In this document: one piece after another, positions 10,497 to 64,000 of the stretch
Layout: the number at the start of each line of letters is the position of its first letter
Numbering within the stretch: position 1 is the stretch's first letter
Origin: Oryzomonas sagensis
Lineage (GTDB): Bacteria > Desulfobacterota > Desulfuromonadia > Geobacterales > Pseudopelobacteraceae
Length of the DNA stretch: 64,000 nt
NCBI RefSeq assembly: GCF_008802355.1
Contig: NZ_VZRA01000001.1
Location: 504,980-568,979 of the forward strand
Reading direction: 5' to 3'
Program-made: the position numbers and the translations under genes
Notes under the pieces: generated by a model
The model's input: only the letters and a program-made list of their open reading frames with translations
What the model was told of the DNA's origin: nothing
The model's database searches: none

Positions 10497-10501
10497 TTCT
10501 T

Positions 10502-10556: not shown

Positions 10557-10614
10557 GATTTTTTTGCACGCGACAAAAACAGTGGCACCAACCGGGGCGA
10601 CAAACCCCGGGGTG

Positions 10615-14465: not shown

Positions 14466-14496
14466 CGTGAAAAAGCGGACCTTACCTGGGTAGCGG

Positions 14497-16195: not shown

Positions 16196-16198
16196 GCC

Positions 16199-16777: not shown

Positions 16778-16995
16778 GTTCGCCGCCGCATCGGCCTCGC
16801 CCCTTGGGCCCGACCGAAAGCAGACCCACGGCCGGCCTGCCCCACGTGGTCAGAACCATCTGAATTTTATACAATTACCGGACCATGACCGGAGAAGACC
16901 GTCGTTTCGGGGTTTAGATTTTTGAATAAGCTCCGAAAGTATGTTAAAAGAATAAGACATCACTTATCACCCCTTCAGACAAGGAACAGGTTTCC

Positions 16996-19311
<2,316 letters not shown>

Positions 19312-29418: not shown

Positions 29419-29699
29419 GAGATGTTCTCCAGAAAATGCAACTCTATTGTAATAAAAACTAGTACGTTCTGTAATCCGAAAACGGCACCATGTCAAGGCC
29501 AGGCGGCTATTTAGCGGACGTCCAACGGCAACAGAACTGCGATATGGCGACACCCTGCGGCCAAAGCTCGTTTGCCAGTGCTTCGCCTGAAATAGTGACA
29601 ACTATTATCCTTGATTTGTTAGCACCTTATAATAGCTTCGCGAAAGCTCCATTTATTTGCCTCCAGCGGTCCACATATTGCAATTTAAATAAATTTTCT

Positions 29700-30425
29700 A
29701 TGAACCGGATTCAACCGGCGATAATTTACTGGCAGTGGACCATTGTGAAAATATATTTTTCTTGCGTCATCTCCATAATCATTTTTCTATGCCAGGGTGT
29801 CATGGTAGCTTACTGTGGGCCCAATGCCGGGACAGGCGTCAAAGGATCAAAACATGACCTGAATATGTTCACCTTGCAGGGGCAAGACCCGCAGGGACGA
29901 ATTTGTGTTTATTGCCATGTGCCGCATCATGCTGAAAAAGGAACGACACTGACTCCGCCACTCCTCTGGGCCGCAGCGGCCAATAAATCCTTTGCCCCCT
30001 ACGCAAGCGCCACGTTCGACGCGTTCATAGAAGATCTCACCATGGGGCCTACCAAAATATGTCTTTCTTGCCATGACGGAACCATTGCCAGCGATACCCA
30101 TCCGAATTTGAGATCCGACGCCTTTGGCGGCGCAGGCGTAGGCATGAGTAGCGACCTCAGCAATGACCACCCCATAGGCTTCGATTATCTGAAAATAGTT
30201 CAAAGCAAGCCGGATGACTATAAATCTCCCAATGCACTCTGGCACAACGGCAATGGAACCGTTACCGTTGCGAGCTGCCTATATCAAGGCAAGTATGTCA
30301 CCTGCGCCACCTGCCACGATATGCACAATACAAAAAATGTGGCAGACCCCGAAAACTCATATAATTACTTCATTTATTCGAGACAAAAGGACTCATCCCT
30401 CTGCCTGAGTTGCCACCTGAAATGA
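29700..30425 (+). CDS. Tetraheme c-type cytochrome, secreted
   Basis: 241 residues from ATG 29700; a GTG at 29745 would give a cleaner signal peptide (KIYFSCVISIIIFLCQG). Four CXXCH sites: CVYCH, CLSCH, CATCH and a C-terminal CLSCH three residues from the end. The segment SDLSNDHPIGFDY and the ends of the first two haem motifs (CHVPHHA, CLSCHDGTIA) match the tetraheme protein at 54896-55666 and the N-terminus of the 12-haem protein at 56079. The region is AT-richer than its neighbours. The AT-rich codon use, at a divergent locus away from the main cytochrome cluster, may mean transfer or a recent insertion. Likely periplasmic or extracellular electron carrier. Confidence 0.85.
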   Translation: MNRIQPAIIYWQWTIVKIYFSCVISIIIFLCQGVMVAYCGPNAGTGVKGSKHDLNMFTLQGQDPQGRICVYCHVPHHAEKGTTLTPPLLWAAAANKSFAPYASATFDAFIEDLTMGPTKICLSCHDGTIASDTHPNLRSDAFGGAGVGMSSDLSNDHPIGFDYLKIVQSKPDDYKSPNALWHNGNGTVTVASCLYQGKYVTCATCHDMHNTKNVADPENSYNYFIYSRQKDSSLCLSCHLK

Positions 30426-49339: not shown

Positions 49340-49369
49340 AAAAAAACCCCGCCTCTTTCGAGGCGGGGC
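49340..49369 (-). terminator. Rho-independent terminator at the end of the cytochrome cluster
   Basis: On the minus strand CCCCGCCTC pairs with GAGGCGGGG over a 4-base loop and is followed by seven Ts. It lies 40 bases after the stop of the 25-haem cytochrome and closes the eight-gene cluster. Confidence 0.93.
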
Positions 49370-49408: not shown

Positions 49409-52400
49409 CTACGGACGCTCAAATGTGTTCCATGCACCACTGGTACGGCTCCAGCCAAGGAGATAGACCATGGCTTCGGTGGTGCCGGAGGACAACGTGG
49501 TCAGGGTGCCGTCCGTGTAGGCAGCCGCACCCTTACCGAAGGTGAGGGTAACACCGTCGGCATTCAACTGGCCAGACGCAAGAGCCGTAGCGCCAGCCGA
49601 TTGGTTCATGACCCCATCATCGAGGAAGTCGATGGAGTCGTACAGCAACCGACGTGCATAGGAACGAGCATGCACATAGGCAGCCGGGTCGCGGCTCAGC
49701 AGGTTGATGTTGAAGGCGGCACCTTCAAGCTTCAGGGCCTGCGCCGCGGTCAGCGCACCACTACGAGTCCAGTCGGTGACAGCTTTGTTGCTATTGGCCG
49801 TGTCGTAGAAGTACGGGTAGCTTGCCGGGTTGTAGCTGATGCCGTATTTGCTCAGCAGCTGGTTCTTGGCAAGTGTCAGCGCAGCCTGGAACACCTCGGA
49901 CTGCGGCTCGATGAAGTGGGTGTTGAAGTTATCAATGGTGGTGATGTCATTCCCACCTTCCGACGTGTGGCACTGGTTGCAGACCTGGGTGATGGTAGCC
50001 TGGTCGATCTGCAGGCTATGACCCTTGGCACTGTTGCGCGGAGTCCCTGCGTTGGTGAAGCCCTGCATGTGGCAGGTGACGCACGGACCGTTGCTATCCA
50101 GGTTGCCGGCAACGAAGAAGGTCGGGTTATGGCTGTCGCCAATCATTGCTTTGGTACCCAGATTGCGGTGCGTACTGGTCAGGCCGCCTGCAAGGCCGTC
50201 GGGGGTACTGATCGCATCAGGTATCAAGGTTTTGCCGTACGTGCTTGTGCCGGCAGCCGCACTTGTCGAAGTGAAGTTGATGAAACCGGCTTTGGCATAC
50301 ATCAGGCCAGCTGCTGCCATGTAGTGCGAGTTCTGGAAGCTGGAGTTACCCATGCTCAGACCGTTGGTCTTCGCCGTAACCAGAGCGCCACCGGAAACAC
50401 GGCCACTGTGGCAGGAGATGCAGATGTTGGATTGGCCCACGTCCGGGAACTTGGCAGTGATGCGGGCTTTTACCGTCAGCGCGGTGGCCTTGTCAACCGT
50501 GCTGATGTTGTAGAACGTCTGTACGCCTACGCTCTTACCGTAGCTGGACCGGTTGGTGAACGCAAGCGGGCTGACCGCAACGGTGCGGAGAGCTGTCGTG
50601 GTGCTTCCGCTGACATCGGCAGTGTGGCAGGCCGAGCAAGCAAGAGGCGAGTTGAACTTCTGGCCGTCGTTGGCGCCGACAGTGGCGACGGTGACGTACT
50701 TGCTGTCGGCAAACTGAGCGAAGCCGGCAGCAGTGTGGCAGCGAACGCAGTCGCTGGCCGGGATGGTGGTCTGGAAGTTGGCGGCGGAGCCGGAGTTCCT
50801 CCAGTCGTGGCTTGCACCCGGAACCCAGGCGGCGCCGGAACGGTTGCCGTGGTCGGAATCAGCCCATGCGGCGAGAACGTCCGCATTGGTCTGGAAGGTC
50901 TGGGTGGTGGTTGCGCCAATGCCGTGCGGATCGAACTTGAAGTGGCACTGGGCGCAGACGTTGATGCCCTTACCGACGTAACCGACATAGGCGGCGGATA
51001 CGTTGTGGAAGGTTGCCGTCGTTGCGTTGGTGAAGTGGGCAACGCCGTCGAAGAGTTTGCTGTAGGCACCGGTATGGCAGGCGATGCAGGCAGCGCCGGC
51101 GCCGGTAGCGGAATACCCTTTGGCAAGCGAAGGCGTGCTCATGCTTGCGTAGGGGTGTGCCAGCCCGTTGACCGGGGTATGGCAGGTTGCGCAGTCAGGA
51201 CCATGGCCGTTTTGGAAATGGCCGCTGGCAGCATACTGAGTTGCGATGACATTACCGGAATACGGATCAACGGTTGAGTTGTGGCAAGCGGTGCAGTCGG
51301 CTGTTGCCGAACCGGCCCTGTTGCCGTCGCCGCCGATGATGTAGGCTTTTGCTGCGGATGCATCTGCAGCCGCTACGCCGGAACCGCTGACGGCGGAGCT
51401 GATGTTGGCGTACGATGCCGTACCGGCTTTGAGTGAGCCGTATTTCACGAGCTCGATGGAGTCGAAGACGAGCTGTTTAACGTAGCTCGGGTTGTGGATG
51501 TAGGATGCTGCGTCTGCAGACTGGCCGTTGAGGAGCTGCAGGTTGAAGAATGCACCGTAGACCCTGGCAAACAGGGCCTGATTGCCGGTCCAGACATACC
51601 CGCGGGCGATAGTGGTCGCCGTGGTTCTATTTGCTGCCGTTTTCTGCAGCGAGTAGGCTTGACCGGTCAGGGTCGAGGTGCTGGTTGCGGAAGACAGCAT
51701 CTTGAAGCCGGTGAAGTTGTTGGTGCTGGTCATCAAGCCGCCCAGTACCTTGAGGGACGATGCCAGTTCGGCTTTGGCCTGGTCGAGGTTGGCCTGACCG
51801 AAGTCGCTGGAGTGACATGCGGCGCATGCGGTGAAGCTGGTGATCTCCAGGCTGTGGCCTTCAGCCATGTGGCAACCAACGCACGGACCGTTGGCGGTGC
51901 CGGTGTTACCGGGGTTGGTAACGCCAATGTTGCTGTGGTTGTTCGCCGCTTCCGTGTAGGTCCTGCCGTCAGCGGTGTAGCGGTAGCCGACCTTCTGATC
52001 GACGATGGCCGACTGGTAGACACCGTGACCGGTCAGTGCGGAACCGGTGAAGCCGGTGCTGGTGAAGCCGCTGAATGTGGCAGCGAGGGCATTGATCATG
52101 GCCTCGCCGTTGGTCGCATTGGAGCGGCCGGCGTGACAGGAAACACAGACGTTGGACAGCTTGAGGTCGGAGTACATGACCGGAGTACCGGTTGCACCCT
52201 GAACACCGTTGAACCACTTGCCGGTGTTCTTGGTGGAGAAGTTGTAGAATGCCGGGTAGGCGCCTACGGCACGAACCGTAGCGGCGTTTTCAGGCATGGC
52301 CACGTTCTTCTCGCCGGAGACCGAACCCGGGGCGTCGTAGTGACAGGCGCGGCAGGTAATGACTTCGCCGGACACGTTGGTGTTGTTGGTGGCGGCAGAA

Positions 52401-54832
52401 GTCGCTGCTACCGTGTAGCCGGCCTCCTGGTAGCCCCAGGCGCGCAGGTCGTTGTACTTGCTGATGCCCAGAACCGAGCTCGTGTAGGAAACGAACTTCA
52501 CGAAGCCGGTGGTGGTGTGGCAACGCACGCAACCGTCGGTGTAGCTGTTGGACGGTTTGATGCTGGCGGAACTGAAACCTCTGTACTTGAAGTAGTTCTT
52601 GGCAGCCCAACGGCCAAAGCCCGGGTCGGCATGAGTGCTTTCGGCATACTCGGCGTTCCGGGTGTTGTCGTGGGAGTGGCAGTTGGAGCAGCTGTTGTAG
52701 GTTGTGACGTACTGGGAAGACGAGTTGTAGAATACATACCGGCTTCCGGTGTACCAGCCGGTGGTGGTGGAACCCACATTTTTGGCGGCAGTGCCCAGTT
52801 TCGAGTACTGGTTGCCGTAGCTGTGCGGCACTTTCATGGCGCCGGTGGCGTCATAGATGCCGTAGCCGCTGCCGGCTGCATGGCAGGTCTGGCAATCGGT
52901 CCCTTTCTTCACCAGTGCCTGGTCGGCAGCGCCAGCAACAGGAGCTGCACCGCTGTAGGTGAAGAATTTTGCGATTGTGGAGTGCGGGTTGTGGCAGCTT
53001 GTGCACTCGAGGGTTTCAAAGGTGTTGGTAAAGTGGGACGATTTGTGGAATGCCACGGTGGTGGGGCCGTGTTTGCCGCCGGTATGACATTCTTCGCACG
53101 TATTGGCCGAGTTCGTGGTCGGGTTGTGCGGATCATGGCAAGCGACGCAGGCGTCCTTACCGGGACGGTTGACTGCTTGAGTGTCTTTCTTTCTCATGTT
53201 GGTGGTGTAGCTGGCCAACGGGTTGAGATTGGGTTTGAAGTGACACCGGTAGGCGCAGGTGGTGAGGCCGTCGGGGGCTTCACTGGTCGTCCAGGATTCA
53301 TTGGGGTTGATCTGGCCTTCGGTAGCGGTACCGCCGTAAGGGGCGATCGCCGAGGCGCCGGTAAATTCAGGACCGTACTCGAACGAGTTGTTCCAGTGCG
53401 GGCTGGAGAAGAAGTCGACGGACGGCGTACCATGCTTGCCGTCGTTGACGTGGCAGTACAGACAGGTGTTGAAGGTGGAGACCACTCCATTGGCTACTTT
53501 GCCGGGGTGGCGAACCGTCGCGCCCGTCATGGTGTTGAACGTGCCGCCTGAGGTAGGTACCGAGGCTGCGGTCCATACGCCGATCGGGTTGACATTTGTA
53601 CCCTGCAGGTTGCCGGAGTGGCAGACCTGGCAGCCGGTGGCGTCTTTGTACTGGGGGTTGGAGAAGTTGGCCGTGACCAGGTTGGGATCGCCGGCGGGGT
53701 TGAAGTGGCACTGGGTGGCGCAGGTGTGCTGGCCGTGTGCCGTCGAGACGTTATTGTAGGCGTTGGTCCAGTGTTTGCTCGTATTGAAGTTCGACGGATA
53801 CATGCCCGGGTGGCTGCTGGTATCCACCTGGTGACAGTTGTTGCAGGAGTACACACTGGCTAAGCTGGAAGCGTTGAATCCGGCCATAGCATCGGGATTC
53901 CTGCCGTTGTGGCATGCGCTGCAGTAGTTGTTAACCGTGTTGGCAGACGACAACACGGTAATGGTAACCGGGGCGGCGACTTTGCTGCCATTCGTGGTCG
54001 TCACGGTAAGATTGGCAGTGTAGGTGCCTGCCACGGCAGGTACGGTAAAGGTGGCGGTCGGCGTGGCTGCCGAAGCCTGGGTTACCGTTACGGCCGCAGG
54101 ACCGGTGACGCTGAAGGCGTAGCCGGTGATGGCGGTGTCGTTTGTGGACGATGCACGGCCGTCAAGCTTTACGGTTGCACCTTGGGCTGCGGTAGTGGGG
54201 GCCGACAAGATGGCCGACGTTTTGTAGGAAGCCGAGTAGGTTGCCGTAATGGTCGGGCTGCTCTGCAATTCGGCAGCGGTCAAGGTAACCTTGCCCACGG
54301 CGCCGGGGGTAACGCCTCCGGTCATCGTGTTCGTGGCGGCATTACCATTGACCTTGATGCCGGTAACGATCGAAGTGGAGCCGGGATAAACGCTGATGAC
54401 CACCGTTGCGCTGCCGCCGATGCCCGTGAGGGCGGTCGAGAGGTTCGAGCTGAGCGACGGTGCGGTCTGCTGGATGAAAATGGTGCCGCCGGTCGACTGC
54501 GACGCGGTCACGGTGTACGAGGCCGCTGCCGCAAAGGTCACGGCCAGGTAGTGGGTGCCGCCGATCTGGGCGGGCAACTTGTTGCCCAGGGTAAAGGCAG
54601 CGCCGTCAAGCGTTGCGCTGGCGACAGTGCCCAGAACCGACGTGGCTACCGTTGCGCTGTTGTTGGCAGGGTAGGTGTAGTAAGTGCCGGAGCCCGCTGT
54701 TGTCAGACCGTTAGCGGTAACGGTATTAACACCTGTTTTGCCGCCACTGACCTTCACCTGCAGCGTATAGGCGCTGGCAAGTGCCGGTAGGAGCAGCAAC
54801 AAGGTGCATAAAATGAAGCTGATCTTTCTCAT
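49409..54832 (-). CDS. Very large multihaem c-type cytochrome, 25 candidate haem sites
   Basis: 1807 residues with a signal peptide (LCTLLLLLPALASA). The first 300 residues are beta-rich, Ig-like and haem-free. Then come 23 CXXCH motifs and two CX3CH motifs, CATQCH and CAYRCH, both followed by HF and a proline-rich stretch. The C-terminal two-thirds contain an internal duplication: a block starting CVRCHTTTGF and one starting CVRCHTAAGF carry five haem motifs each, in the same order. Both end in a helical region (YIHNPSYVKQLVFDSI; YVHARSYARRLLYDSI). No lipobox was seen. It is probably a surface or extracellular cytochrome. It is the last gene of the cluster, 63 bases after the tetraheme gene. 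Confidence 0.9.
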   Translation of the reverse strand: MRKISFILCTLLLLLPALASAYTLQVKVSGGKTGVNTVTANGLTTAGSGTYYTYPANNSATVATSVLGTVASATLDGAAFTLGNKLPAQIGGTHYLAVTFAAAASYTVTASQSTGGTIFIQQTAPSLSSNLSTALTGIGGSATVVISVYPGSTSIVTGIKVNGNAATNTMTGGVTPGAVGKVTLTAAELQSSPTITATYSASYKTSAILSAPTTAAQGATVKLDGRASSTNDTAITGYAFSVTGPAAVTVTQASAATPTATFTVPAVAGTYTANLTVTTTNGSKVAAPVTITVLSSANTVNNYCSACHNGRNPDAMAGFNASSLASVYSCNNCHQVDTSSHPGMYPSNFNTSKHWTNAYNNVSTAHGQHTCATQCHFNPAGDPNLVTANFSNPQYKDATGCQVCHSGNLQGTNVNPIGVWTAASVPTSGGTFNTMTGATVRHPGKVANGVVSTFNTCLYCHVNDGKHGTPSVDFFSSPHWNNSFEYGPEFTGASAIAPYGGTATEGQINPNESWTTSEAPDGLTTCAYRCHFKPNLNPLASYTTNMRKKDTQAVNRPGKDACVACHDPHNPTTNSANTCEECHTGGKHGPTTVAFHKSSHFTNTFETLECTSCHNPHSTIAKFFTYSGAAPVAGAADQALVKKGTDCQTCHAAGSGYGIYDATGAMKVPHSYGNQYSKLGTAAKNVGSTTTGWYTGSRYVFYNSSSQYVTTYNSCSNCHSHDNTRNAEYAESTHADPGFGRWAAKNYFKYRGFSSASIKPSNSYTDGCVRCHTTTGFVKFVSYTSSVLGISKYNDLRAWGYQEAGYTVAATSAATNNTNVSGEVITCRACHYDAPGSVSGEKNVAMPENAATVRAVGAYPAFYNFSTKNTGKWFNGVQGATGTPVMYSDLKLSNVCVSCHAGRSNATNGEAMINALAATFSGFTSTGFTGSALTGHGVYQSAIVDQKVGYRYTADGRTYTEAANNHSNIGVTNPGNTGTANGPCVGCHMAEGHSLEITSFTACAACHSSDFGQANLDQAKAELASSLKVLGGLMTSTNNFTGFKMLSSATSTSTLTGQAYSLQKTAANRTTATTIARGYVWTGNQALFARVYGAFFNLQLLNGQSADAASYIHNPSYVKQLVFDSIELVKYGSLKAGTASYANISSAVSGSGVAAADASAAKAYIIGGDGNRAGSATADCTACHNSTVDPYSGNVIATQYAASGHFQNGHGPDCATCHTPVNGLAHPYASMSTPSLAKGYSATGAGAACIACHTGAYSKLFDGVAHFTNATTATFHNVSAAYVGYVGKGINVCAQCHFKFDPHGIGATTTQTFQTNADVLAAWADSDHGNRSGAAWVPGASHDWRNSGSAANFQTTIPASDCVRCHTAAGFAQFADSKYVTVATVGANDGQKFNSPLACSACHTADVSGSTTTALRTVAVSPLAFTNRSSYGKSVGVQTFYNISTVDKATALTVKARITAKFPDVGQSNICISCHSGRVSGGALVTAKTNGLSMGNSSFQNSHYMAAAGLMYAKAGFINFTSTSAAAGTSTYGKTLIPDAISTPDGLAGGLTSTHRNLGTKAMIGDSHNPTFFVAGNLDSNGPCVTCHMQGFTNAGTPRNSAKGHSLQIDQATITQVCNQCHTSEGGNDITTIDNFNTHFIEPQSEVFQAALTLAKNQLLSKYGISYNPASYPYFYDTANSNKAVTDWTRSGALTAAQALKLEGAAFNINLLSRDPAAYVHARSYARRLLYDSIDFLDDGVMNQSAGATALASGQLNADGVTLTFGKGAAAYTDGTLTTLSSGTTEAMVYLLGWSRTSGAWNTFERP

Positions 54833-54895
54833 TCTTTTCTCCTTTGGGGATTCATTACCGTAGAAATGTCATAGTATTCACACTGCCCCGAAGTA

Positions 54896-55666
54896 TTACT
54901 TGATGTGGCAGGTCAGGCAGAGTGCTGAATCCTTCTGCGGAGCGAGAACCAGATAGTTCATGGTCTCTGCGCCCTGGAGGTTCTTCTTGTTGTGCACATC
55001 GTGGCAGGTTGCGCAGGTCATGATGCTGCCGTTGTAGAGGCGGTCAGCGACTTTAATGTTGGCTGGATTGTCGCGGTAGGTGAGGCCTTGGTCGGCCTTG
55101 CGGATATAGTTGTACTGGTCCGGGGTGGTGGCGGTGCCGGCCGTGGTGCAGATGTTGGAGTCGCCACAACCGGCGGCGATGGCCATGTAGTCGAAGCCGA
55201 CCGGATGGTCGTTGGACAGGTCTTTATTCACACCGACGCCGGGGCCGCCGAAGTTGTCGTTGGTCAGCATCGTGCCGGTGTTGGCGCTGCCGTAGTGCTG
55301 GTCGAGGGCGATGGAACCGTCGTGGCAGGTCATGCAGAGACGGGTCGGGCCGGCGGCGGCGTCACCGGTGCTGTACACGGTCGAATCAAAGGTAGCCGAT
55401 TGGTAAGCGACGAAGGTCTGCTGATCGTCCATGCGGGACCAGAGCGGGGCATAGGAGCTAGCCGCAGCCGGTTTGATAGCGTGGTGAGGGGTATGGCAGA
55501 ATGCGCAAACACGGTCGTTCCCGCCGATATCGGTGATATTGGCGGAAACGCGCATGTCATGCACCGAGTTAAGCACCCCCTGGCCGGCAGTGGCGGTCGG
55601 AGCAGAGTACGCTACAGCGGCGTTAAGCCCCACGATGGCTACTGCTGCTAAAATTCTCTTCTTCAT
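54896..55666 (-). CDS. Tetraheme c-type cytochrome, possible filament-type (OmcE-like) subunit
   Basis: 256 residues with a signal peptide (RILAAVAIVGLNAAVAYS, cleavage near SA-P). Four haem sites: CAFCH, CMTCH, CATCH and CLTCH, the last three residues from the C-terminus. Extra histidines follow most motifs (CHTPHHA, CHDVHN), suited to bis-His ligation. The size and haem spacing resemble small tetraheme cytochromes such as OmcE, which forms extracellular filaments in Geobacter; identity is an inference. ATG 55666 was chosen because GGAG lies nine bases upstream; ATG 55672 is too close to it. It is preceded by a 412-base gap, so it may have its own promoter. Confidence 0.9.
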   Translation of the reverse strand: MKKRILAAVAIVGLNAAVAYSAPTATAGQGVLNSVHDMRVSANITDIGGNDRVCAFCHTPHHAIKPAAASSYAPLWSRMDDQQTFVAYQSATFDSTVYSTGDAAAGPTRLCMTCHDGSIALDQHYGSANTGTMLTNDNFGGPGVGVNKDLSNDHPVGFDYMAIAAGCGDSNICTTAGTATTPDQYNYIRKADQGLTYRDNPANIKVADRLYNGSIMTCATCHDVHNKKNLQGAETMNYLVLAPQKDSALCLTCHIK

Positions 55667-56078
55667 GTACATGTTCTCCTTTTCTTGTGGTGTTACGACA
55701 ATTGAATCGAAGTACCCTGTGCAACGTGTGATAGCTGCTCTCCGTCATCGGCCTCCTTTCGGTAAATTGCTTGGAATGCCAGTCGTTCCAAGTGGTTAAG
55801 CTATCGAGCTTTTTTGTCCTCACTTCACGCAAGGAAAGTCGGGCATTCTCCAGGTGAGCAAGCATTGTGCCAACGCGATTATGCCGCCGGTGCCGAGCGG
55901 GACGACTCCCTGCCGAGCTCCTGAAATCAGCATTCCAGCCCTATCCAGGCGTTTGCCGGCATACCGCGCCTCCACCGGGCATGACCGGATATGTGCCGTT
56001 ATTTCACGGAAGGGTTGTTTTTTGGCGTTGCCCCTCCCTGCCGGGAGGGGCAACGCAACTCATTGAATGATTGAGGTA
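55667..56078. other. Long leader or intergenic region before the tetraheme gene
   Basis: About 410 bases that break an otherwise tight cluster. It holds a perfect 14-bp hairpin at 56025-56056, a smaller hairpin (CTTGGAA with TTCCAAG) near 55775-55800, and a 41-codon frame at 55623-55748. That frame opens behind AAAGGAGG and overlaps the tetraheme start in another frame. I saw no GEMM-type riboswitch signature. A separate promoter with a structured leader is likely. Confidence 0.5.
56025..56056. repeat. Perfect 14-bp hairpin after the 12-haem cytochrome gene
   Basis: GCGTTGCCCCTCCC pairs with GGGAGGGGCAACGC over TGCC, 23 bases after the stop of the 12-haem gene. On the minus strand it is followed by As, not Ts, so it is not a classical terminator. 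It may protect the upstream transcript's 3' end. Confidence 0.65.
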
Positions 56079-57881
56079 TTACGGAGAATAGGGATAGGGG
56101 TTGTAGCTGGCCGGGTTGGTGGTGGTAGTGTGGCAGGTGAGGCCGCTGGTGCCGGGACCGACGACAAAACAGGTCTTGGCGCCGGCATCGTAGGGCTGGT
56201 TGGGGGCTTGCGGCGTCGCCGCATAGCGCAAATCGAAGTTGATCAGGTGGAGCGAATTGGTGTCGGTAGTCAGCCCCGCCTTGTAGGGCACGCCGTGGGG
56301 GTCGTGGCAGGCGGAACAGGAGGCCTTGGTGTTGTTGCTGCTGAGCGGATTATGCAACCCCTGGACATGCGCCTTGTGCAGCTTGCCCAGATCGGTGGCC
56401 GTGTTCATCAGATAGGTTTCGTCGTGGCAACTGTAGCAGAGCGGGTAGGATGTGCCCTGGGCGGCCGAGAAGGTGTCCTGGTTGTCCAGACGCAGCAGGT
56501 GCGTGCCGGAACCGTGGGAGTCATGGCAGTCGTTGCAGTAGATCGAGGTTATGCCTTTGTTGAGCAGGCTGTTCCCGGTCCCGGTGCGCTGATGGGCGAT
56601 CGGGTGCCAGGACTTGGCGCTGCCCCAGTTGATGCGCTCACGTTCGTCCAGGGAACTGAACATGCGCGATACGGGGGGATATTCATTGAAGTTTCCGGCC
56701 AGGGCCGCATCGCCGGAGTGGCATTTGAGGCAGATCTCATATTCATAACTGGCGCCGGCCGTCGTGACGGCGCCGTTGATGGTGACCCCCCTCACCCCCG
56801 TAAGTACGCCGTTTACATTGGGCGCCGTGCTTGAGTTGAGCGGGGCGTTCTGCCAGAGGGTCTGGTGCGGGTTATGGCAATCGACGCAATGGACGTGTTT
56901 GCCGGGAGCGGTCAGCGGCAGGGTTTCCGCCTCGGTATGCGTGGTTCCGCCGCCGTCGTAGCCGCCGCCGCCGGCCGGGTTGTGAAAGCCGGCCGTGCGC
57001 ATGTCCAGATACGGAGCGCCGTTATCGTTGTTGTGGCACGAGGCATAACAGTTGGTATCCATGCTGGCGGTGCCGGAGGTGAGCTTCAGGAGATTCTCGC
57101 CCCGCTGGGCGCCATGGGGGGTGTGGCAGGAGATGCAGCCCTGCTGGGAGACGGCCGTCGCGACCGTCGCGCCGTACCTGGTCCCGCCGGTCTGGTGGGC
57201 GCTTCCCGACCAGCCGTTCTTGGTATGGCACACGGTGCAGAGGGCATCGGCCTGGGTGGCGGTATTGGTCACCAGGAAATTGCCGTACTGGTTATCGTGG
57301 GCGTTGTGGCAGGAACTGCATTCTACGTAGTTTGTGCCGTTACGCGACACCAGCTTGACGCGCGATACGGCGGCTATTGTGGCCGGATCCCGAAACTCGC
57401 CCGTCTTGAGGCCGTACTCCATGGAAATCGGATGGTCGTCGCGCAGGTCCTTGCCGAGCACCGTCGATTTTTGGGGAAAGGATGGCGGCGTCAGCACCCC
57501 GAGTTGCGCGGTGGTGCCGTGAGCAACGGGAGAGCCAAGGGCAATGGTGCCGTCATGGCAGCTCAGACAGAGGCGGGAGGCTCCCATCGGCTGTCCCGGC
57601 TTGGCGGAAATGGTGCTGGAAACATAAGTTATGTAGTCCTGCGCCGTATTTTCATCGCGGCTCCACAACGGCCCCGAATCGCTCGTATCGGTCAGCTTGG
57701 TCGCATGGTGGGGGGTATGGCAGAAGATGCAGACCCGCTCCTCGCTGGACTTTATCCTCCCCGGACCGCTGGACGACAGGTTGTGGGGCGACGTGAGGAT
57801 GCTGTCGGCGCCCGCGGGGAAGACCGGAGCCAGGAGGGAGCACAGGACGGACAGGGTCATGATTGCCGCAAGTCGATTCAT
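56079..57881 (-). CDS. Multihaem c-type cytochrome, about 12 haems, with tetraheme-like N-terminus
   Basis: 600 residues from ATG 57881, with a signal peptide (MTLSVLCSLLAPVFPAGADS). Ten CXXCH motifs, one CX3CH (CYASCH), and a CX11CH motif at the very end (CFVVGPGTSGLTCH). Residues about 27-230, with CIFCHTPHHA, CLSCHDGTIA, DLRDDHPISMEYG and CSSCHNAHD, match the stand-alone tetraheme proteins at 54896 and 29700. The rest carries paired motifs of the CxxCHxPH type. It starts 4 bases after the NHL gene ends, so the two are coupled. Periplasmic or outer-surface location cannot be decided. Confidence 0.9.
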   Translation of the reverse strand: MNRLAAIMTLSVLCSLLAPVFPAGADSILTSPHNLSSSGPGRIKSSEERVCIFCHTPHHATKLTDTSDSGPLWSRDENTAQDYITYVSSTISAKPGQPMGASRLCLSCHDGTIALGSPVAHGTTAQLGVLTPPSFPQKSTVLGKDLRDDHPISMEYGLKTGEFRDPATIAAVSRVKLVSRNGTNYVECSSCHNAHDNQYGNFLVTNTATQADALCTVCHTKNGWSGSAHQTGGTRYGATVATAVSQQGCISCHTPHGAQRGENLLKLTSGTASMDTNCYASCHNNDNGAPYLDMRTAGFHNPAGGGGYDGGGTTHTEAETLPLTAPGKHVHCVDCHNPHQTLWQNAPLNSSTAPNVNGVLTGVRGVTINGAVTTAGASYEYEICLKCHSGDAALAGNFNEYPPVSRMFSSLDERERINWGSAKSWHPIAHQRTGTGNSLLNKGITSIYCNDCHDSHGSGTHLLRLDNQDTFSAAQGTSYPLCYSCHDETYLMNTATDLGKLHKAHVQGLHNPLSSNNTKASCSACHDPHGVPYKAGLTTDTNSLHLINFDLRYAATPQAPNQPYDAGAKTCFVVGPGTSGLTCHTTTTNPASYNPYPYSP

Positions 57882-57885
57882 GGCG

Positions 57886-58935
57886 TTAGCGATCCTTCCC
57901 TTGGAGAGCTGTCGGGCGGACATGGCTGAATACCTGGATGCGCCGGTTATAGGTGTCGGCCACGTAGATCCGGTCGCTACGGTCGATAAAGACCCCCGAC
58001 GGCATCCAGAACTGGCCGGGGCCGTCCCCGGTCGCACCGAAGGCAAAGCGGTAGCGGCCGGCGGGGTCGAAGACCTGGACCGCATCGCGCAGGGAATCGG
58101 CGATATAGATATTCCCGCCGCTGTCCACCGCCACCCCCTTCGGTTTGACGAATTCACCGCCGGTATCGCCCGGTTGGCCGAAAGCCTTCTGGAAGACCCC
58201 CGCGGAGGAGAACAGTTGGATTCTGGCGTTCAGGGGGTCGGTGACATACAGCGTTCCCGCATTGTCGATGAATAAATCGGTGGGGTGGTTGAACTGTCCC
58301 GGAGCAGCGCCATGGCTACCGATGCGAAAACGCTCCTTGCCGTTCAGGTCCAGGACGACAACCTGATGCGCCGTGGTGTCGGTCACATAGAGCAAGCGAT
58401 TGTTCCGGTTGAAGGCGATGCCGGTCGGCCGTTCCAGAGAACCGGTAAAGGTTGTCAGGACGTTGCCTTTTACGTCGTAGCGATAGACCATCGCGCCCGC
58501 CGAGTCGGTGATGTAGATATTTTCATTGTCGTCGCCGGTAATGGCGATGGGGCTTTTGAAAAGCGGCGGCTCACCCGTGCCGATCAGCAGATACTTCATG
58601 CTTTGGCTGTCCATGAAATGGACGATGCCGTTGGCGTTATCGGCGATGAACAGCCGGCCCCGGTTATCCACGAAGATGCCGTAGGGGCGGCCGAGACGGA
58701 GGTCGCTTTCACCTACCACAAAATCGGCCAGGCGCCGCCAGAAACCCTTGCGTATGCCCGCATCCCGGTAGTCGCGGATCTCCTGGTTCCAAGTCACCTG
58801 GGCCTCGGCCGGTGACGGCGGCCATTGCAACGGCGCCGGCGGCGGCCCGGGGGTAGCGCAAGCCGTCAGCAGAAGCGCCAGCAAGGCGGAGGCCAGCAGG
58901 TTACGACAACGATTCGTGCGATTCCCGGTGTTCAC
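57886..58935 (-). CDS. NHL-repeat lipoprotein, six-bladed beta-propeller
   Basis: 349 residues from GTG 58935, with AGGTG just upstream. The signal ends in the lipobox LTAC (about residue 26) and a Pro-rich linker. Six NHL repeats are countable, each of the form RPYGIFVDNRGRLFIAD: at PIAITGDDNENIYITD, PTGIAFNRNNRLLYVTD, PTDLFIDNAGTLYVTD, PKGVAVDSGGNIYIAD and PSGVFIDRSDRIYVAD. That gives a closed propeller. It lies 19 bases after the beta-barrel gene and 4 before the 12-haem gene. Likely a scaffold that holds cytochromes at the outer membrane; no enzyme motif seen. Confidence 0.88.
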   Translation of the reverse strand: MNTGNRTNRCRNLLASALLALLLTACATPGPPPAPLQWPPSPAEAQVTWNQEIRDYRDAGIRKGFWRRLADFVVGESDLRLGRPYGIFVDNRGRLFIADNANGIVHFMDSQSMKYLLIGTGEPPLFKSPIAITGDDNENIYITDSAGAMVYRYDVKGNVLTTFTGSLERPTGIAFNRNNRLLYVTDTTAHQVVVLDLNGKERFRIGSHGAAPGQFNHPTDLFIDNAGTLYVTDPLNARIQLFSSAGVFQKAFGQPGDTGGEFVKPKGVAVDSGGNIYIADSLRDAVQVFDPAGRYRFAFGATGDGPGQFWMPSGVFIDRSDRIYVADTYNRRIQVFSHVRPTALQGKDR

Positions 58936-58954
58936 GGGGCACCTGGTCGGGGAA

Positions 58955-60901
58955 TCAGAAATAACGCGATAGTATAAGATGAATATGCTCATCATATGAA
59001 ATCCTTCCTGCTTCGCGGCGCGCTCCGAAGCCAGAAAGCAGTGAGAGGGCCAGCTTACCGGCGCTCCAGCGCAACGAGTTGCCAATCGTGAGGCGGTCAC
59101 TCTGCCTGGCTCCGCCGATGTTCTCATAATCGACATTGAGCGTCATCGCAGTCGTGGAGAAGAGCACCGCATTGTAGCCGGCTGAAACGCTGAACGTGTT
59201 TTCATCGGCACGCCGGGTCGTGCCGATTGCCTCATACCAGCGGTAGTTGTCGCGCAGCGAAAGTGTCAACGTCCCATCCCGCAGATAGCTGTTGTACCGC
59301 GCCATCGCTCTGGCCTCTTGGTGCTTGTCGGAATCGGAATCAAGGGTCTCATATTCCGAGGTCAGCGTGATGGCCCCCCATTTTACTTCGGCTCCGACCC
59401 GCGACATGCCTTGCGCCGTCAAACCGGCCAGGGAGGCCTGGCTGGAAACCCGATCCTCGCGGCTCTGGCTCACGTTACCGTAGAGCTGGAATGCGCCCTT
59501 GAAAAGCATGAGCGCGCCATCCACGCCATAGGCGGCCGTTGTGCTGTCGACACGCGAATCGACCTTGTAATCATAGCTGATCAGCAGGGTGTCCCCCTCC
59601 TTGATCGCGCCGGTCGAGACCGGGACGATTTCGGCCTGCGTCCCGGTCACGACCACCTGATAATCGGTGTTCAGGTCGTAGGGGGGCAGACGTTTCAAGG
59701 AATCGGCATTACGAACCGTAATGCTGGATTCAATCACATTCGGCTGGCCAAGATAGATGTGCCCACCGAAAACGACCGTATGGCTCTCGTTCAGAATATG
59801 CAGATGGTCGGTGTTTCCGAGCTGGCGCTTGATCGCTCCGAGCTGCTGGTAGCCGTTCAGGGTAAGCCGGCCCTCTTTCGGCAATTCCTTGACGTAACCG
59901 AAGGAATACCTCCCCTTCACTTCCTGTTCGTATCCGGTCGGATATTCATCTTTCCTGGCGTTGAGGTCGATCCGGGTCGTCAAACTCTTGAATAGCAGGT
60001 GCTGCAACCAGACGTCGGCGGCGTTATGCACCTGCGAACCGCCGTCACCTCCGCTGTTGAAGAACGAATAGGTTGCGCCGCTCCGCAGGGCCTTGCCCCA
60101 ATCCCAGAGCAGGTTTTCATTCAGGTCCAGGTTTCTGATGTAATTAATGCCGGTGGCCTCCGAGGCGGTCAGGCGGGTGGACAGCATCCTGTTCTTTCCC
60201 GCCTTCGTCCATTGCAGGTCATTGTTGAACCGTAGCTCGTAGCGTTTGTCGGTTCTGCTGGCCCCTTGCGTGGGGACGTACCTGTTGATAATGTCATATA
60301 TCTCCAACGAGCTCCGGCTGATGCCCAGGGTATGCTGGGTAGAAATGGAAACCTGGTCGGTATCGCTCTTCGAATCCACCACCAAGCCGGACGTTTCCGA
60401 GTTTCCCTTTGAGTAGCGGATCGTCGTGGGAAGTATGTCGTTTCGTAACGACCACTGCAGGTTATAGGCCGTGGTGGTTTGTTGGTAGGAATTGGCAAAT
60501 GGCTGCGCCACCTCGGTTATGGTCGAATCCAGGGCAAATGAAGCCGGCGCGACGGAACGCTCCAAAAGGACCCCGTTGATATGGTAAAAAAAACCCTCGC
60601 CGGTAAGGATTCCCGTTGACTGTGAGCTTGTGCCGGACTGCCTCTGGTCAAGTTCCAGCTTTAACGCAATCGAGCCTCGCAAAAGACTTGGTCTGATCAC
60701 GGCATACTGGAATTTATAGTTGTAATCCTCCGCCAGTTGATGCTGTTCTGTGGTGGTTGACTGCTGCTGCCCAAGAAACTTGTAGTCGATGTCAAGCCAT
60801 TGCTGGGGGGGCGTGAGCATGAGAAGCCCCACCCTTTCTGCCTGGGCGTCACCGATAACTAGCAACAGAAGCGCGCTTGCAAAAAAAATGATTTTCCGCA
60901 C
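58955..60901 (-). CDS. Outer-membrane beta-barrel protein, candidate porin of an electron conduit
   Basis: About 648 residues. The signal peptide (KIIFFASALLLLVIGDAQA) is followed by a chain of alternating amphipathic strands rich in Tyr, Ser, Thr and Asn with short turns, ending in LSRYF; a terminal Phe is typical of Bam-assembled barrels. No cysteine pairs for haem. I favour GTG 60901 (GGGAG seven bases upstream); ATG 60919 overlaps the upstream stop as ATGA and is also possible. Size fits the large barrels that sheath multihaem cytochromes in porin-cytochrome conduits. It sits between a 5-haem lipoprotein gene and an NHL lipoprotein gene. Confidence 0.82.
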   Translation of the reverse strand: MRKIIFFASALLLLVIGDAQAERVGLLMLTPPQQWLDIDYKFLGQQQSTTTEQHQLAEDYNYKFQYAVIRPSLLRGSIALKLELDQRQSGTSSQSTGILTGEGFFYHINGVLLERSVAPASFALDSTITEVAQPFANSYQQTTTAYNLQWSLRNDILPTTIRYSKGNSETSGLVVDSKSDTDQVSISTQHTLGISRSSLEIYDIINRYVPTQGASRTDKRYELRFNNDLQWTKAGKNRMLSTRLTASEATGINYIRNLDLNENLLWDWGKALRSGATYSFFNSGGDGGSQVHNAADVWLQHLLFKSLTTRIDLNARKDEYPTGYEQEVKGRYSFGYVKELPKEGRLTLNGYQQLGAIKRQLGNTDHLHILNESHTVVFGGHIYLGQPNVIESSITVRNADSLKRLPPYDLNTDYQVVVTGTQAEIVPVSTGAIKEGDTLLISYDYKVDSRVDSTTAAYGVDGALMLFKGAFQLYGNVSQSREDRVSSQASLAGLTAQGMSRVGAEVKWGAITLTSEYETLDSDSDKHQEARAMARYNSYLRDGTLTLSLRDNYRWYEAIGTTRRADENTFSVSAGYNAVLFSTTAMTLNVDYENIGGARQSDRLTIGNSLRWSAGKLALSLLSGFGARREAGRISYDEHIHLILSRYF

Positions 60902-60915
60902 ATCAACGCTCCCGG

Positions 60916-61500
60916 TCATCTCAGGAAATATTGTACATTCCCGTAATGGGGATCGTGACAGTTGATACAAATAAGATCGTGGCTGGCGGAATTCTCATGC
61001 AGGCCTGAAGCCTGCCTTTTTTCACGATGGCAGGCATTGCAGACTTGGCCTGCCGGAGATTTCAGCAGCGACGGATTTGACGAACTGTGCGGTTCGTGAC
61101 AGGCAAGACAGTCTCCCACCGCAATCGGTCCATGCACGAAGCTCCCTTTGACGAATCCGGTGTGACAGACAAAGCAGAGTTCATTTTTCGATTTGACGAC
61201 AAAGCCGCTTTCGGTTGTTTTGTCATGGCACCTGTCGCACTGTTTTTCATTGTAGGGTTTGTGCGACGAGGCCTTGCCAGCGGCATCGCCACGATTTGCC
61301 CCGCCGCTGGCAATGTCGGCGCGCAGTTTCGCCACAACGCTGCTGGCATACTCCCCGCAAAACTGTTCCGGAGGGGGCATGCTCGGAACACCGTCAAATA
61401 TGGTTGAAACTGCCTTATACCGGTCAATAGGACTGCACCCGGCAACAATCGCGATCAGGCACAGCGCCAGCACAACCCTCTGAAGCGGAAAACCCGGCAC
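60916..61500 (-). CDS. Pentaheme c-type cytochrome lipoprotein
   Basis: 194 residues from GTG 61500, placed just after the stop of the NHL gene (TGACGTG). The signal ends in the lipobox VAGC (about residue 23). Five CXXCH motifs: CDRCH, CFVCH, CLACH, CNACH and CINCH. The paired pattern CLACHEPHSSS and CINCHDPHYG is of the doubled-CXXCH type. Its small size and lipid anchor suit a haem wire or plug inside the beta-barrel encoded next, with which it overlaps or nearly overlaps. Confidence 0.88.
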   Translation of the reverse strand: MPGFPLQRVVLALCLIAIVAGCSPIDRYKAVSTIFDGVPSMPPPEQFCGEYASSVVAKLRADIASGGANRGDAAGKASSHKPYNEKQCDRCHDKTTESGFVVKSKNELCFVCHTGFVKGSFVHGPIAVGDCLACHEPHSSSNPSLLKSPAGQVCNACHREKRQASGLHENSASHDLICINCHDPHYGNVQYFLR

Positions 61501-61501
61501 G

Positions 61502-62650
61502 TCAGTCCGCTTTCCTGCCGGCGGCTTCCGGTGATGTTTCGGCGGCACCCTTGCGATGCCCAAAGCCGTAAACCGATATTTTGTCATTACCCATCTGATT
61601 GGTAACGAAAACCACTTGCTCCAGTACAAAGTCGGGAGCGGCAAATTGCTGGAAATAATCCAGATCTTCGTTGGTGACGGTTATGCCAGCCGGGAGATTC
61701 AGCGCTCCTGCCGGCAGGGGCGGATCGCCGAAAAACATCAGCAGCCGGTTATTTTCGTTAAAAAGTTGTACATTCTGGAACCCGCCGTCAACCACCCAGG
61801 TACGGTTCTTGTCGTCGACGGCAATCCCTTTGGGGCGGGTAAATTCGCCAAAGGCGTCACCAAGTTTGCCAAACGTGTTGATCAGATGGCCATCCTTGTC
61901 CAGGGTAACGACATTCCCGGCGCCGACATTGGTGACATGGATCAACCCCTTGCTGTCAACCGTCAGGTTTGTCGGCAAGGACAAAAACGGGGTGCCGTCG
62001 GTGTTTTTTTGAATACTTTTTTCAAACTGGCCGGTCTTACGGTCAAACACCTTGATATCATTCCCCTTTATATCAAGAACAAAGATCGAGGTATCATCCA
62101 CAGCCACATCGACCGGCTTCGTGAGATTTTCCTTGCCGATACTGCCGATGTAGTTGCCTGCGGCATCATAGCGCAAAATCTCCTGTCTGAGGGAATCCGC
62201 TACGAAGAGGCCCCCATCCTTATCCACCGCCAGGTTGATGGGTTTTTTCAGCCTGCCCAGGTTGGTGTTTCCCTTGAGGTAGTTAAATGTTTTGTTCTTG
62301 AAATCAACGATAATGACCGACGGCGGGCTTTGTGTATCGCAGATATACAGCTTGCCGCGGATATATTTGACGCCGTAGGGCCTGATGATCGGCTTGATCA
62401 AGTCTTTTTCGCTGGTTCCCGTGACCAGCAGGGTAAAGCCGCTTTTATCGGGTTCCACGTCGCGGGAACTATTTACCGATTTTAAAAACTGAACCCGTGG
62501 CTCACTTGGGGGCGGCGGAAAAAAGACCGGGCCCGCCTTTGGGGCAGGGGCCGTGGCACAGGCCGTCACGAGCAGTGCAACAAGCAGTGCCATAACGACG
62601 ATTTTCGCGCTCGAGACAACTCCGGCTACTTGGTTCCTTATTGGATTCAT
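61502..62650 (-). CDS. NHL-repeat lipoprotein, six-bladed beta-propeller (second copy)
   Basis: 382 residues from ATG 62650, with GGAGG eleven bases upstream. The signal ends in the lipobox VTAC, followed by a Pro-rich linker FFPPPPSEPR. Six NHL-like repeats: RPYGVKYIRGKLYICD, KPINLAVDKDGGLFVAD, KPVDVAVDDTSIFVLD, LPTNLTVDSKGLIHVTN, RPKGIAVDDKNRTWVVD and a last divergent one. It is related to the copy at 57886 in layout, but less than closely in sequence. The C-terminal tail is basic and Ala-rich. It lies between the 15-haem and 5-haem cytochrome genes. Confidence 0.88.
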   Translation of the reverse strand: MNPIRNQVAGVVSSAKIVVMALLVALLVTACATAPAPKAGPVFFPPPPSEPRVQFLKSVNSSRDVEPDKSGFTLLVTGTSEKDLIKPIIRPYGVKYIRGKLYICDTQSPPSVIIVDFKNKTFNYLKGNTNLGRLKKPINLAVDKDGGLFVADSLRQEILRYDAAGNYIGSIGKENLTKPVDVAVDDTSIFVLDIKGNDIKVFDRKTGQFEKSIQKNTDGTPFLSLPTNLTVDSKGLIHVTNVGAGNVVTLDKDGHLINTFGKLGDAFGEFTRPKGIAVDDKNRTWVVDGGFQNVQLFNENNRLLMFFGDPPLPAGALNLPAGITVTNEDLDYFQQFAAPDFVLEQVVFVTNQMGNDKISVYGFGHRKGAAETSPEAAGRKAD

Positions 62651-62669
62651 ACTATTGATTACCTCCATG

Positions 62670-64000
62670 TTATTTCTGGCCCTTTTCCTCTGATCGATAG
62701 TCTTCCGGTTTCTCCCGGTCATAGGCAAAGGGGCGATGGCATCCCGGCGAACAACTTCCTCCGGTCGGCGTGAGCATAAAGTTGATCGGAATCTTCCAAT
62801 CGCCGAATTGTACACCTTCCTTGCTGATCAACTTCTCCCCGGTGCTGGCGTGGGGTTCATGGCAGACGCGGCAGGTGCGCCCTTTGCGGTTGACGACGTG
62901 GACATAGTGCAGATTGCGATTCCCGTTGCGAAATTTGGTATAGATCGTGGTTTCCGGAAAGCGAAGCAGGTTCTTTTCGTGGCACGACAGGCATACGCCA
63001 TAGATGCCGTCCTTATAAGCGACATAGAGGTCCGACGGATAGCTTCCCTTGAGCAAACGGAAATTATCGCTTCCGTGGGGGTCGTGGCAGGCCCGGCATT
63101 CGCCCAGTTCCAGCGGCCCATGCAGATATTTCTTCCCCTCGATCTCCTTCTTGATGTTTTTGAGGGGCGGCTTGCCGAGTTTGTCCGTGGCGTGACATTC
63201 CAGGCAAACGCTCATATCATCCCCTGACAGAAGTCCTTTGGCCTTGGAAAAGTGGCTGGAATGACAGTTACCGCAGCCTCCCGTCTCCTGAAGGGGTTTA
63301 TGCACAAGTTTCATCCTCAGCTTTTTTTCAACCCCCGGATGGCAACTGATGCAGATATCCGGCATCTTTTTCTTGAGCAGTTGGCCGTTTTCACTGCTGT
63401 GCGGGGCGTGACAGGAGGTGCAGGGGCCTTTTTTGACCGGTGGGTGGATGAAAGGCGACTCCTGAAGTGTTTTCAAAAAATCGGCATGGCATTTGAGACA
63501 ACTTTCCCAGACCGGCCCCCTGAGAAGCTTCTTCTCATCCGATTCGTGGGGATTGTGGCACCGGCTGCAAGAACCGACAGCTACGGGGCCATGCCTGACT
63601 TTCTTCTTGAAATCAGCGGCATCGTGACATCCCATGCAGAGGGCGGTCTGATCGTCTCCCCCTTCCAGAAGGAAACGGCCGGCGCCGCCATGGGGCTTGT
63701 GGCAGTACGCACACTCCCCGTCCTTGACCGGGGGGTGCACATTCTTTTTCTTCCCGAAGGTATCGTGGCACTGGTAGCAGAGGGCGGCCCCCTGTGCAGT
63801 CATGGCAAAACTCTTGGCGCCCTTGAGCGGGTGGAGCGGATTGGTCTGTTTATGGCAGCCCGAGCAGTCCCCCTCCTTGACCGGCTCATGCATATTCTGT
63901 GTTCCGCCAATTGACGTATGGCACTCTGCGGTTTTACATGACACATCGGCAGCCTGGGCGACGCACGGAAATATCGCCGTCAGCAGGAGGAGGCCCACAG
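62670..64000 (-). CDS. Multihaem c-type cytochrome, 15 candidate haems (5' end outside window)
   Basis: At least 442 residues; the frame runs off the right edge within the signal peptide (LLLLTAIFPCVAQAAD), so the start codon is missing. Thirteen CXXCH motifs, plus CX4CH (CKTAECH) at the mature N-terminus and CX3CH (CSPGCH) near the C-terminus. Many come as the doubled motif CxxCHxPHxS (CHKPHGG, CHAPHSS, CHDPHGS, CHEPHAS), typical of DmsE/MtrA-like periplasmic haem wires. It is the first gene of the cluster in this window and ends 19 bases before the NHL gene. A periplasmic wire feeding the barrel is the likely role. Confidence 0.92.
   Translation of the reverse strand, partial: VGLLLLTAIFPCVAQAADVSCKTAECHTSIGGTQNMHEPVKEGDCSGCHKQTNPLHPLKGAKSFAMTAQGAALCYQCHDTFGKKKNVHPPVKDGECAYCHKPHGGAGRFLLEGGDDQTALCMGCHDAADFKKKVRHGPVAVGSCSRCHNPHESDEKKLLRGPVWESCLKCHADFLKTLQESPFIHPPVKKGPCTSCHAPHSSENGQLLKKKMPDICISCHPGVEKKLRMKLVHKPLQETGGCGNCHSSHFSKAKGLLSGDDMSVCLECHATDKLGKPPLKNIKKEIEGKKYLHGPLELGECRACHDPHGSDNFRLLKGSYPSDLYVAYKDGIYGVCLSCHEKNLLRFPETTIYTKFRNGNRNLHYVHVVNRKGRTCRVCHEPHASTGEKLISKEGVQFGDWKIPINFMLTPTGGSCSPGCHRPFAYDREKPEDYRSEEKGQK

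Follow-up and report, generated by a model that had tools for sequence, protein, structure and literature searches.

A conserved gene set of Geobacterales that appears to combine an outer-membrane electron feed-through with a nanowire building block

Known conduits and the layout of the cluster

Porin-cytochrome conduits are defined by three elements, namely a periplasmic cytochrome, a barrel, and a redox lipoprotein, as set out in the relevant passage of Otero 2018 (PMC6148476). A passage of Murali 2023 (PMC10553843) calls the link between extracellular cytochrome filaments and the inside of the cell poorly understood, and OmcE-type polymerisation, in an excerpt of PMC12307469, takes a ligand from the neighbouring subunit. 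The closest described gene sets are the omcE locus of Geobacter (OmcE, PDB 7tfs), MtrCAB (PDB 6r2q), Uet, and Oet, whose core comprises a propeller protein, a 16-haem cytochrome, a 26-haem cytochrome, and a peptidyl-prolyl isomerase in the section of Skennerton 2017 (PMC5539420) that deals with it. The cluster analyzed here, from a soil bacterium, probably encodes both an electron conduit of the outer membrane and a candidate filament that the conduit would feed. It lies at the right end of a 64 kb stretch of DNA, termed the window, and has the following features:

62670..64000, start near 64028, minus strand: MtrA-like cytochrome with 15 haems, assigned from its haem sites and MtrA profile match
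61502..62668, minus strand: NHL1, NHL-repeat lipoprotein (Pfam NHL, E 9e-10; lipobox VTAC by eye)
60916..61500, minus strand: MtrA-like 5-haem lipoprotein cytochrome (GTG start and lipobox VAGC, both by eye)
58955..60919, minus strand: outer-membrane beta-barrel with 28 strands predicted in the AlphaFold model; C-terminal end RYF
57886..58935, minus strand: NHL2, NHL-repeat lipoprotein (Pfam NHL, E 1.8e-28; lipobox LTAC and GTG start, both by eye)
56079..57881, minus strand: 12-haem cytochrome, with an OmcE-type tetrahaem module at the N-terminus and an 8-haem region fused behind it
56025..56056, minus strand: perfect 14-bp hairpin with a loop of 4, located 3' of the 12-haem stop and without a T run (z -6.05)
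54896..55672, minus strand: 4-haem OmcE-family cytochrome, a candidate filament subunit by homology to 7tfs
49409..54832, minus strand: giant cytochrome with 25 haems and a PKD-like domain at the N-terminus
49346..49369, minus strand: intrinsic terminator with a 10-bp stem and T run

The preliminary description of this DNA was accurate on the outline of the cluster. Eight minus-strand genes stand in an unbroken row from 49409 to ~64028, the first of them starting 28 bases beyond the window edge once the sequence is extended rightward, and they encode five multihaem cytochromes (15, 5, 12, 4, and 25 haem sites, 61 in sum), two NHL-repeat lipoproteins, and one beta-barrel. The terminator closing the row was also correctly recognized, with 8 GC pairs in its stem and its T run (49369-49346). 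The haem density, which had been called unusual, is not due to chance, because only one other ORF of at least 60 aa in the window contains two or more CXXCH motifs (29490-30425).

Junctions had been given as mostly under 65 bases, and with start codons picked by eye this is true of all that were measured but one. The 15-haem/NHL1 and NHL1/5-haem junctions are 1 base each, the 5-haem and barrel genes overlap in an ATGA, and the barrel/NHL2, NHL2/12-haem, and 4-haem/25-haem junctions span 19, 4, and 63 bases. The exception is the 406-base gap between the 12-haem and 4-haem genes, which contains the perfect hairpin, its core being found at a single place in the genome when both strands are searched. 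Given this long gap and its hairpin, the 4-haem and 25-haem pair may be off the shared transcript.

Both Oet and Uet resemble the cluster in composition. Oet as OetABI also has a porin, periplasmic and surface multihaem cytochromes, a propeller protein, and nearby filament cytochromes, in the portions of PMC10553843 and PMC5539420 that describe it. The 15-haem profile matches the 16- and 26-haem genes of three loci termed Oet-like by their make-up (L108, L121, L124), whereas the 25-haem protein matches Oet-like profiles at only 20.5 bits, and the barrel profile has no match in these three loci at E 1e-4. Identity with Oet, as published in those portions, is ruled out, since the eight proteins include no isomerase family and none with 26 haems. 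Uet, a possible identity for the cluster, likewise has an 11/12-haem cytochrome, a tetrahaem cytochrome, two NHL proteins, and a barrel; its description in passages of PMC10734462 includes trihaem cytochromes and an isomerase, both absent from the eight genes, and mentions neither a 15-haem nor a 5-haem partner. The ext and omcBC conduits share the three-element definition and differ in gene set, judged by the description in part of PMC6148476, which also presents a Geobacter sulfurreducens strain from which all five known conduits are missing. No description of this gene order was found in the portions of openly licensed papers that were consulted, and a text search of part of PMC9473688 gave no match.

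A six-gene block conserved in Geobacterales

The six-gene block of 15-haem cytochrome, NHL protein, 5-haem lipoprotein, barrel, NHL protein, and 12-haem cytochrome is a widespread, conserved cluster in Geobacterales, with linkage to a tetrahaem gene of the OmcE family and to a large cytochrome that varies. Conservation was counted across 53 further barrel loci in Geobacterales, all distinct (L047, which repeats L031 at the opposite end of that contig, was dropped). Unlinked barrels and cytochromes in relatives would, by the preliminary description, have spoken against the conduit, and from the barrel side they do not occur: with profiles made from the window sequences and those of at most 16 of these 53 loci, the 5-haem gene adjoins the barrel in 53/53, and NHL1 is found in 52, the 15-haem gene in 51, NHL2 in 51, and the 12-haem gene in 49. 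The OmcE-like 4-haem gene is present in 44/53, including L181, whose copy is cut. Absences are mostly contig ends. L046 has the core without the 12-haem and 4-haem genes, L040 is without NHL2 and the 12-haem gene, and the 4-haem gene of L033, L174, and L175 lies more than 4 kb past the 12-haem gene.

Viewed from the 15-haem side, the barrel is present in 35/41 close loci. Among the six without it, L057 and L088, each with 10 kb in view, have the 15-haem and 5-haem genes, and the other four are near contig ends. More distant 15-haem loci have a barrel in just 9/39. The 25-haem protein (23 CXXCH and 2 CX3CH sites) is not the defining part of the cluster but the most variable, and its position varies in relatives. 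The window genome carries a second cluster of the same kind.

Components of the predicted outer-membrane conduit

The three defining elements of a porin-cytochrome conduit each have a candidate in the cluster. The 15-haem protein has 13 CXXCH, one CX4CH, and one CX3CH site, all invariant in 15/15 aligned sequences, and its profile matches the MtrA chain 6r2q_A (E 3.6e-22; this chain bears an odd depositor name, and its partner 6r2q_B is titled 'Structure of the Mtr complex'). Because by eye it carries a Sec-type signal but lacks a lipobox, the 15-haem protein is predicted to be the periplasmic multihaem c-type cytochrome. The 5-haem protein also matches 6r2q_A (E 1.5e-12), and its by-eye lipobox suggests that it is the outer-membrane lipoprotein with redox cofactors. 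The model of the barrel, the predicted outer-membrane component, has 28 long strands (pLDDT 89.1, pTM 0.69) and contains a beta insert at residues ~365-445.

Similarity to MtrCAB is thus found by sequence in the 15-haem and 5-haem proteins, and a large barrel is common to both systems. The barrel sequence itself has no match to MtrB in a search of the PDB. In a Foldseek search with the barrel model, the top TM among the 50 matches listed (0.43/0.42) belongs to MtrB (6r2q_B), which ranks 42 by E, and 6r2q is missing from the 50 matches listed in a further search. The window adds NHL, 12-haem, 4-haem, and 25-haem proteins to what is seen in MtrCAB.

Filament-type modules and the proposed electron path

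The 4-haem protein shows homology to OmcE along its whole length (PDB 7tfs, E 5.3e-15 as a single sequence and 2.8e-37 as a profile). Its H36, H61, H154, and H225 are invariant in 27/27 sequences, occupy the same places in 7tfs, and are probably the distal haem ligands. The N-terminus of the 12-haem protein matches 7tfs over residues 9-218 (E 5.6e-23), and the four CXXCH of OmcE together with four further histidines are present both there and in the 4-haem protein. In the 12-haem module these are H30, H55, H147, and H192, kept in 46/46 rows. The complete protein has 10 CXXCH, one CX3CH, and one CX11CH site, with Cys/His kept in 98-100% of the 46 rows.

In a module tree read unrooted, with L165 left out since it did not match the pattern used, OmcE forms a clade (0.999), as do the 12-haem modules (0.973), including one piece of the split 12-haem gene of L031. 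A sister relation between these two is not claimed, as the split uniting them has just 0.617. The 4-haem gene is not omcE itself: a split with support 1.0 separates the type I/II 4-haem proteins from OmcE, and within the window genome OmcE matches best to a 12-haem protein, in its N-terminal module, with no OmcE ortholog found in a single search.

The omcE locus resembles the window in having an OmcE-family tetrahaem cytochrome, one or more NHL proteins, and a large barrel-like protein. Of 16 OmcE-ortholog loci chosen among the best of 30 listed, 15 are readable (L163 is cut by its contig), and beside omcE all 15 have genes for an 8-haem protein, an NHL protein, and a barrel-like protein of 711-806 aa, the last called by eye from a lack of haems, a signal-like start, and a final F. 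The 8-haem protein matches the 5-haem or 15-haem profile of the window, and 12 of these 15 readable loci encode a 10/11-haem protein related to the 15-haem protein. The omcE locus differs in lacking the 12-haem fusion, in gene order, in having resB/resC-like genes upstream (names by eye), and in that its tetrahaem protein, OmcE, and the window 4-haem protein are not orthologs; its barrels have a weak profile link to the window barrel (hhalign probability 46).

These data can also be read as a conduit alone, in which the 4-haem protein stays unpolymerized as a soluble or surface cytochrome and the 12-haem protein is a plain outer-face cytochrome. The separate 4-haem clade would fit, and no filament interface could be obtained from the poor AlphaFold model of the 4-haem protein (pLDDT 46.1). 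That reading is unlikely, however, as the 4-haem protein keeps the haem-ligand histidines of OmcE, its final CXXCH is at the chain end as in OmcE, and its two strong PDB matches are 9yuq and 7tfs.

For a conduit that feeds a filament, the following path is proposed. Electrons would be gathered in the periplasm by the 15-haem protein and carried through the 28-strand barrel by a haem wire formed by the 15-haem protein, the 5-haem lipoprotein, or both, like MtrA in MtrB, with the NHL lipoproteins bracing the complex. The 12-haem protein would sit at the outer face, its OmcE-type end serving as the first subunit onto which 4-haem proteins stack to form the filament, and the giant cytochrome would touch mineral, partner cell, or matrix. 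An electron conduit had already been suggested by the preliminary description, and conserved linkage, the barrel model, the MtrA matches, and the by-eye lipoboxes agree with it; the OmcE-type modules, the wide conservation, and the second copy had been overlooked. A more specific version, possible though doubtful, makes the 12-haem protein a dedicated nanowire socket. Fusion would lock an OmcE-type subunit to an 8-haem tail docking on the MtrA-type wire in the barrel, leaving one free face for 4-haem stacking. Cytochrome filaments in general would then plug into the six-gene block, the filament and tip cytochromes being interchangeable.

The current is assumed to run outward to Fe(III) or Mn(IV), because the relatives are metal reducers. 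Characterised Geobacterales respire metals, and the barrel is commoner in this order (45/141 at ≥100 bits) than in an even sample of the phylum (16/297). Both points weigh against a conduit that runs inward, with Fe(II), Fe(0), or a partner cell as electron source, although direction is not fixed by anything in the sequence. Such an inward current, improbable here, has been proposed for similar sets in excerpts of three papers: Oet for electron uptake in partners of methanotrophic archaea (PMC10553843), Uet for uptake in cathode oxidisers (PMC10734462), and, for iron oxidation, a locus of Geoalkalibacter that encodes an OmcE homolog plus two NHL proteins (PMC12016550). Least probable is a role of the barrel and the two NHL lipoproteins as a machine for export and assembly of filament cytochromes with no electron path, for although the beta insert is unusual and NHL and barrel-like genes accompany omcE in all 15 readable loci, an export pore would not need the five-haem protein that adjoins the barrel in 53/53 loci and that, in the window copy, has MtrA similarity and a lipobox.

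A block that brings together an MtrA-type conduit, the gene of a filament subunit, and a filament-type module fused to further haems is a concrete, testable candidate for the filament-cell link, and if the reading holds, the plugging of nanowires into the cell becomes directly testable. Relatives offer natural variants with swapped filament and tip proteins. The block occurs in genera with cultured strains, and Geomonas and Oryzomonas strains are among the records.

Organization of the cluster in Oryzomonas sagensis

The preliminary description of a porin-cytochrome electron conduit gave the gene content correctly: eight minus-strand genes encode cytochromes of 15, 5, 12, 4, and 25 haems (denoted 15h, 5h, 12h, 4h, and 25h), two NHL-repeat lipoproteins (NHL1 and NHL2), and an outer-membrane beta-barrel, and a strong terminator follows the last gene. 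In this 3.6 Mb genome, where the window spans G000:C1:504980-568979, 15h starts at about 64028, 28 bases beyond the window edge, and a gene of the same strand that looks comM-like by eye ends about 188 bases further upstream. The first six genes, 15h to 12h, are joined by gaps of 1–19 bases or by overlap, and a 406-base gap between 12h and 4h separates them from 4h and 25h. Within this gap, 3' of the 12h stop, lies a perfect 14-bp hairpin (56025–56056; z −6) that lacks a T run and whose core occurs at one place only in the genome. In some relatives, too, 12h is followed by a strong hairpin, in certain cases terminator-like; 16 of 45 beat their own shuffles. Given the long gap and hairpin against the tight junctions of the first six genes, the eight genes are more aptly described as a block of six followed by a unit of two (4h and 25h).

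One further multihaem gene is found in the window:

29490–30425, plus strand: OmcE-like tetrahaem gene, the second in the window and the sole other multihaem ORF there

Its protein is 46% identical to the 4-haem protein of the cluster and is placed near it in the tetrahaem module tree; no barrel or NHL genes of the cluster's families were found beside it. About 130 kb from the cluster, a region of the same contig (L002, L003, and L006; G000:C1:680000-699999) holds a 9-haem ORF and an 8-haem ORF, and short pieces of DNA there resemble the 25h gene at 70–73% identity.

Conservation and distribution

The barrel profile matches 50 of 141 Geobacterales genomes, 45 of them at 100 bits or more; the remaining five show short pieces only, restricted in four to the insert region of the barrel. 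Partners were counted on the same stretch and strand at each of the other distinct barrel loci that reach 100 bits, 53 in all (one duplicate left out). The 5h gene is present at all 53, NHL1 at 52, 15h and NHL2 at 51 each, 12h at 49, and an OmcE-like 4h at 44. Most missing partners are cut by contig ends, the genuine exceptions being L040 (without NHL2 and 12h) and L046 (without 12h and 4h).

Grouped by where 4h and 15h lie with respect to the barrel, the loci fall into three layouts; at nine loci no 4h gene is in view. Type I (26 loci) reads 15h-NHL1-5h-barrel-NHL2-12h-4h, type II (13 loci) 15h-4h-NHL1-5h-barrel-NHL2-12h, and type III (5 loci) 4h-NHL1-5h-barrel-NHL2-12h-15h. The window cluster is type I. 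In this type the 12h-to-4h gap is 302 to 4884 bases where measured, and 20 of the 26 loci carry a large cytochrome of at least 7 to at least 23 haems, lower bounds because some extend past the stretch. A seven-haem protein of 980–1267 aa occurs at 11 of the 13 type II loci. The same genome has a second complete cluster, of type II, on contig C4 (L041, G000:C4:150500-170499, 4154–17899), ending with a seven-haem protein of 1103 aa. In genome G004, a single 4.1 Mb contig (C1) bears a cluster near both ends (L031 and L047) with equal scores and the 12-haem gene split in both, which may reflect a circular assembly whose overlapping ends were left unmerged.

Of 297 genomes drawn from the phylum, the barrel profile matches 29, with 16 at 100 bits or more, including O. 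sagensis (counted by eye). Named genomes were scanned with the 15-haem profile, yielding 410 related stretches. Among the best 80 of these, the barrel is present at 60 bits or more in 44: in 35 of the 41 whose 15h is close and in 9 of the 39 whose 15h is distant. Barrel-bearing stretches come from Oryzomonas, Geomonas, Geotalea, Malonomonas, and Desulfuromusa, and diverged versions from Phycisphaerae, Acidobacteriota, and Nitrospirae. L057 and L088 have 15h and 5h, but a barrel was not found within 10 kb in view.

Candidate conduit proteins and tetrahaem modules

Matches to MtrA (6r2q_A) were obtained for 15h as a profile (E 3.6e-22) and for the 5-haem protein (E 1.5e-12). Both propeller proteins have Pfam NHL repeats, and lipoboxes by eye. 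The barrel protein matches no Pfam family at E 0.1. Its AlphaFold model, from an alignment of 34 sequences (pLDDT 89.1, pTM 0.69), has 28 long strands, counted by eye, and strands 17 and 18 are separated by a small beta insert. The MtrB barrel has 26 strands. If the strands are assumed to tilt by 38 degrees, the standard formula for barrels gives a radius of ~25 Å for 28 strands versus 23 Å for 26, so the modeled barrel plausibly has room for a haem wire. The insert (residues ~371–461) has a sub-cutoff match to an NCBIfam model of the phage tail tube (34.9 bits versus 60, E 1.1e-8), and genome searches also turned up further ORFs that match the insert alone.

As a single sequence, the 4-haem protein finds the OmcE nanowire subunit 7tfs (E 5.3e-15) and a second tetrahaem cytochrome, 9yuq (16 chains, E 5.5e-18); a profile of 27 sequences, the window's included, reaches 2.8e-37 and 1.1e-38, respectively. 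Besides the four CXXCH motifs, H36, H61, H154, and H225 are invariant in 27/27 and align with histidines of OmcE, and both chains stop three residues past the last haem cysteine. Residues 9–218 of the 12-haem protein match 7tfs (E 5.6e-23), forming an N-terminal module of the same kind whose four extra histidines are conserved in 46/46 rows. A FastTree tree of 111 modules (176 columns), with supports taken unrooted, contains four separate groups: OmcE (0.999), 12-haem modules (0.973), type III 4h (0.981), and type I/II 4h (1.0), the last including the window's protein. OmcE and the 12-haem modules join with a support of just 0.617.

Alongside the established parts, homologies, ligand conservation, and linkage of the cluster, a path for electrons can be proposed. 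A 15h in the periplasm would pass electrons to a barrel wire made by 5h and/or 15h, from which they may reach 12h and then stacked 4h and/or the giant cytochrome. The 12-haem fusion is an attractive candidate for the base of a filament. The cluster offers a specific, testable idea of how a nanowire plugs in to the cell.

OmcE loci and published systems

An OmcE query matches 94 of 141 genomes. In O. sagensis the best match falls on the N-terminal module of the 12-haem protein encoded by the C4 cluster, and by this one search the genome is therefore without an OmcE ortholog. Sixteen strong loci among the 30 listed were examined; one was too short, and 15 were readable (L158–L162 and L164–L173). 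At all 15, which belong to Geobacterales relatives, the neighbors of omcE include genes for an 8-haem protein, an NHL protein, and a barrel-like protein (711–806 aa with a final phenylalanine; barrel character by eye). Upstream are resB- and resC-like genes (by eye), and a 10/11-haem gene related to 15h occurs at 12 of the 15.

The phrases omcE operon, omcE locus, and omcE gene cluster are absent from the literature searched, which also gave no description of the present gene order. Among published systems, those closest to the cluster are Oet (PMC10553843, PMC5539420), Uet (PMC10734462), and a locus of Geoalkalibacter (PMC12016550). From the published lists of Oet and Uet, the window cluster differs in composition; the Geoalkalibacter locus is described as encoding two NHL proteins together with an OmcE homolog.
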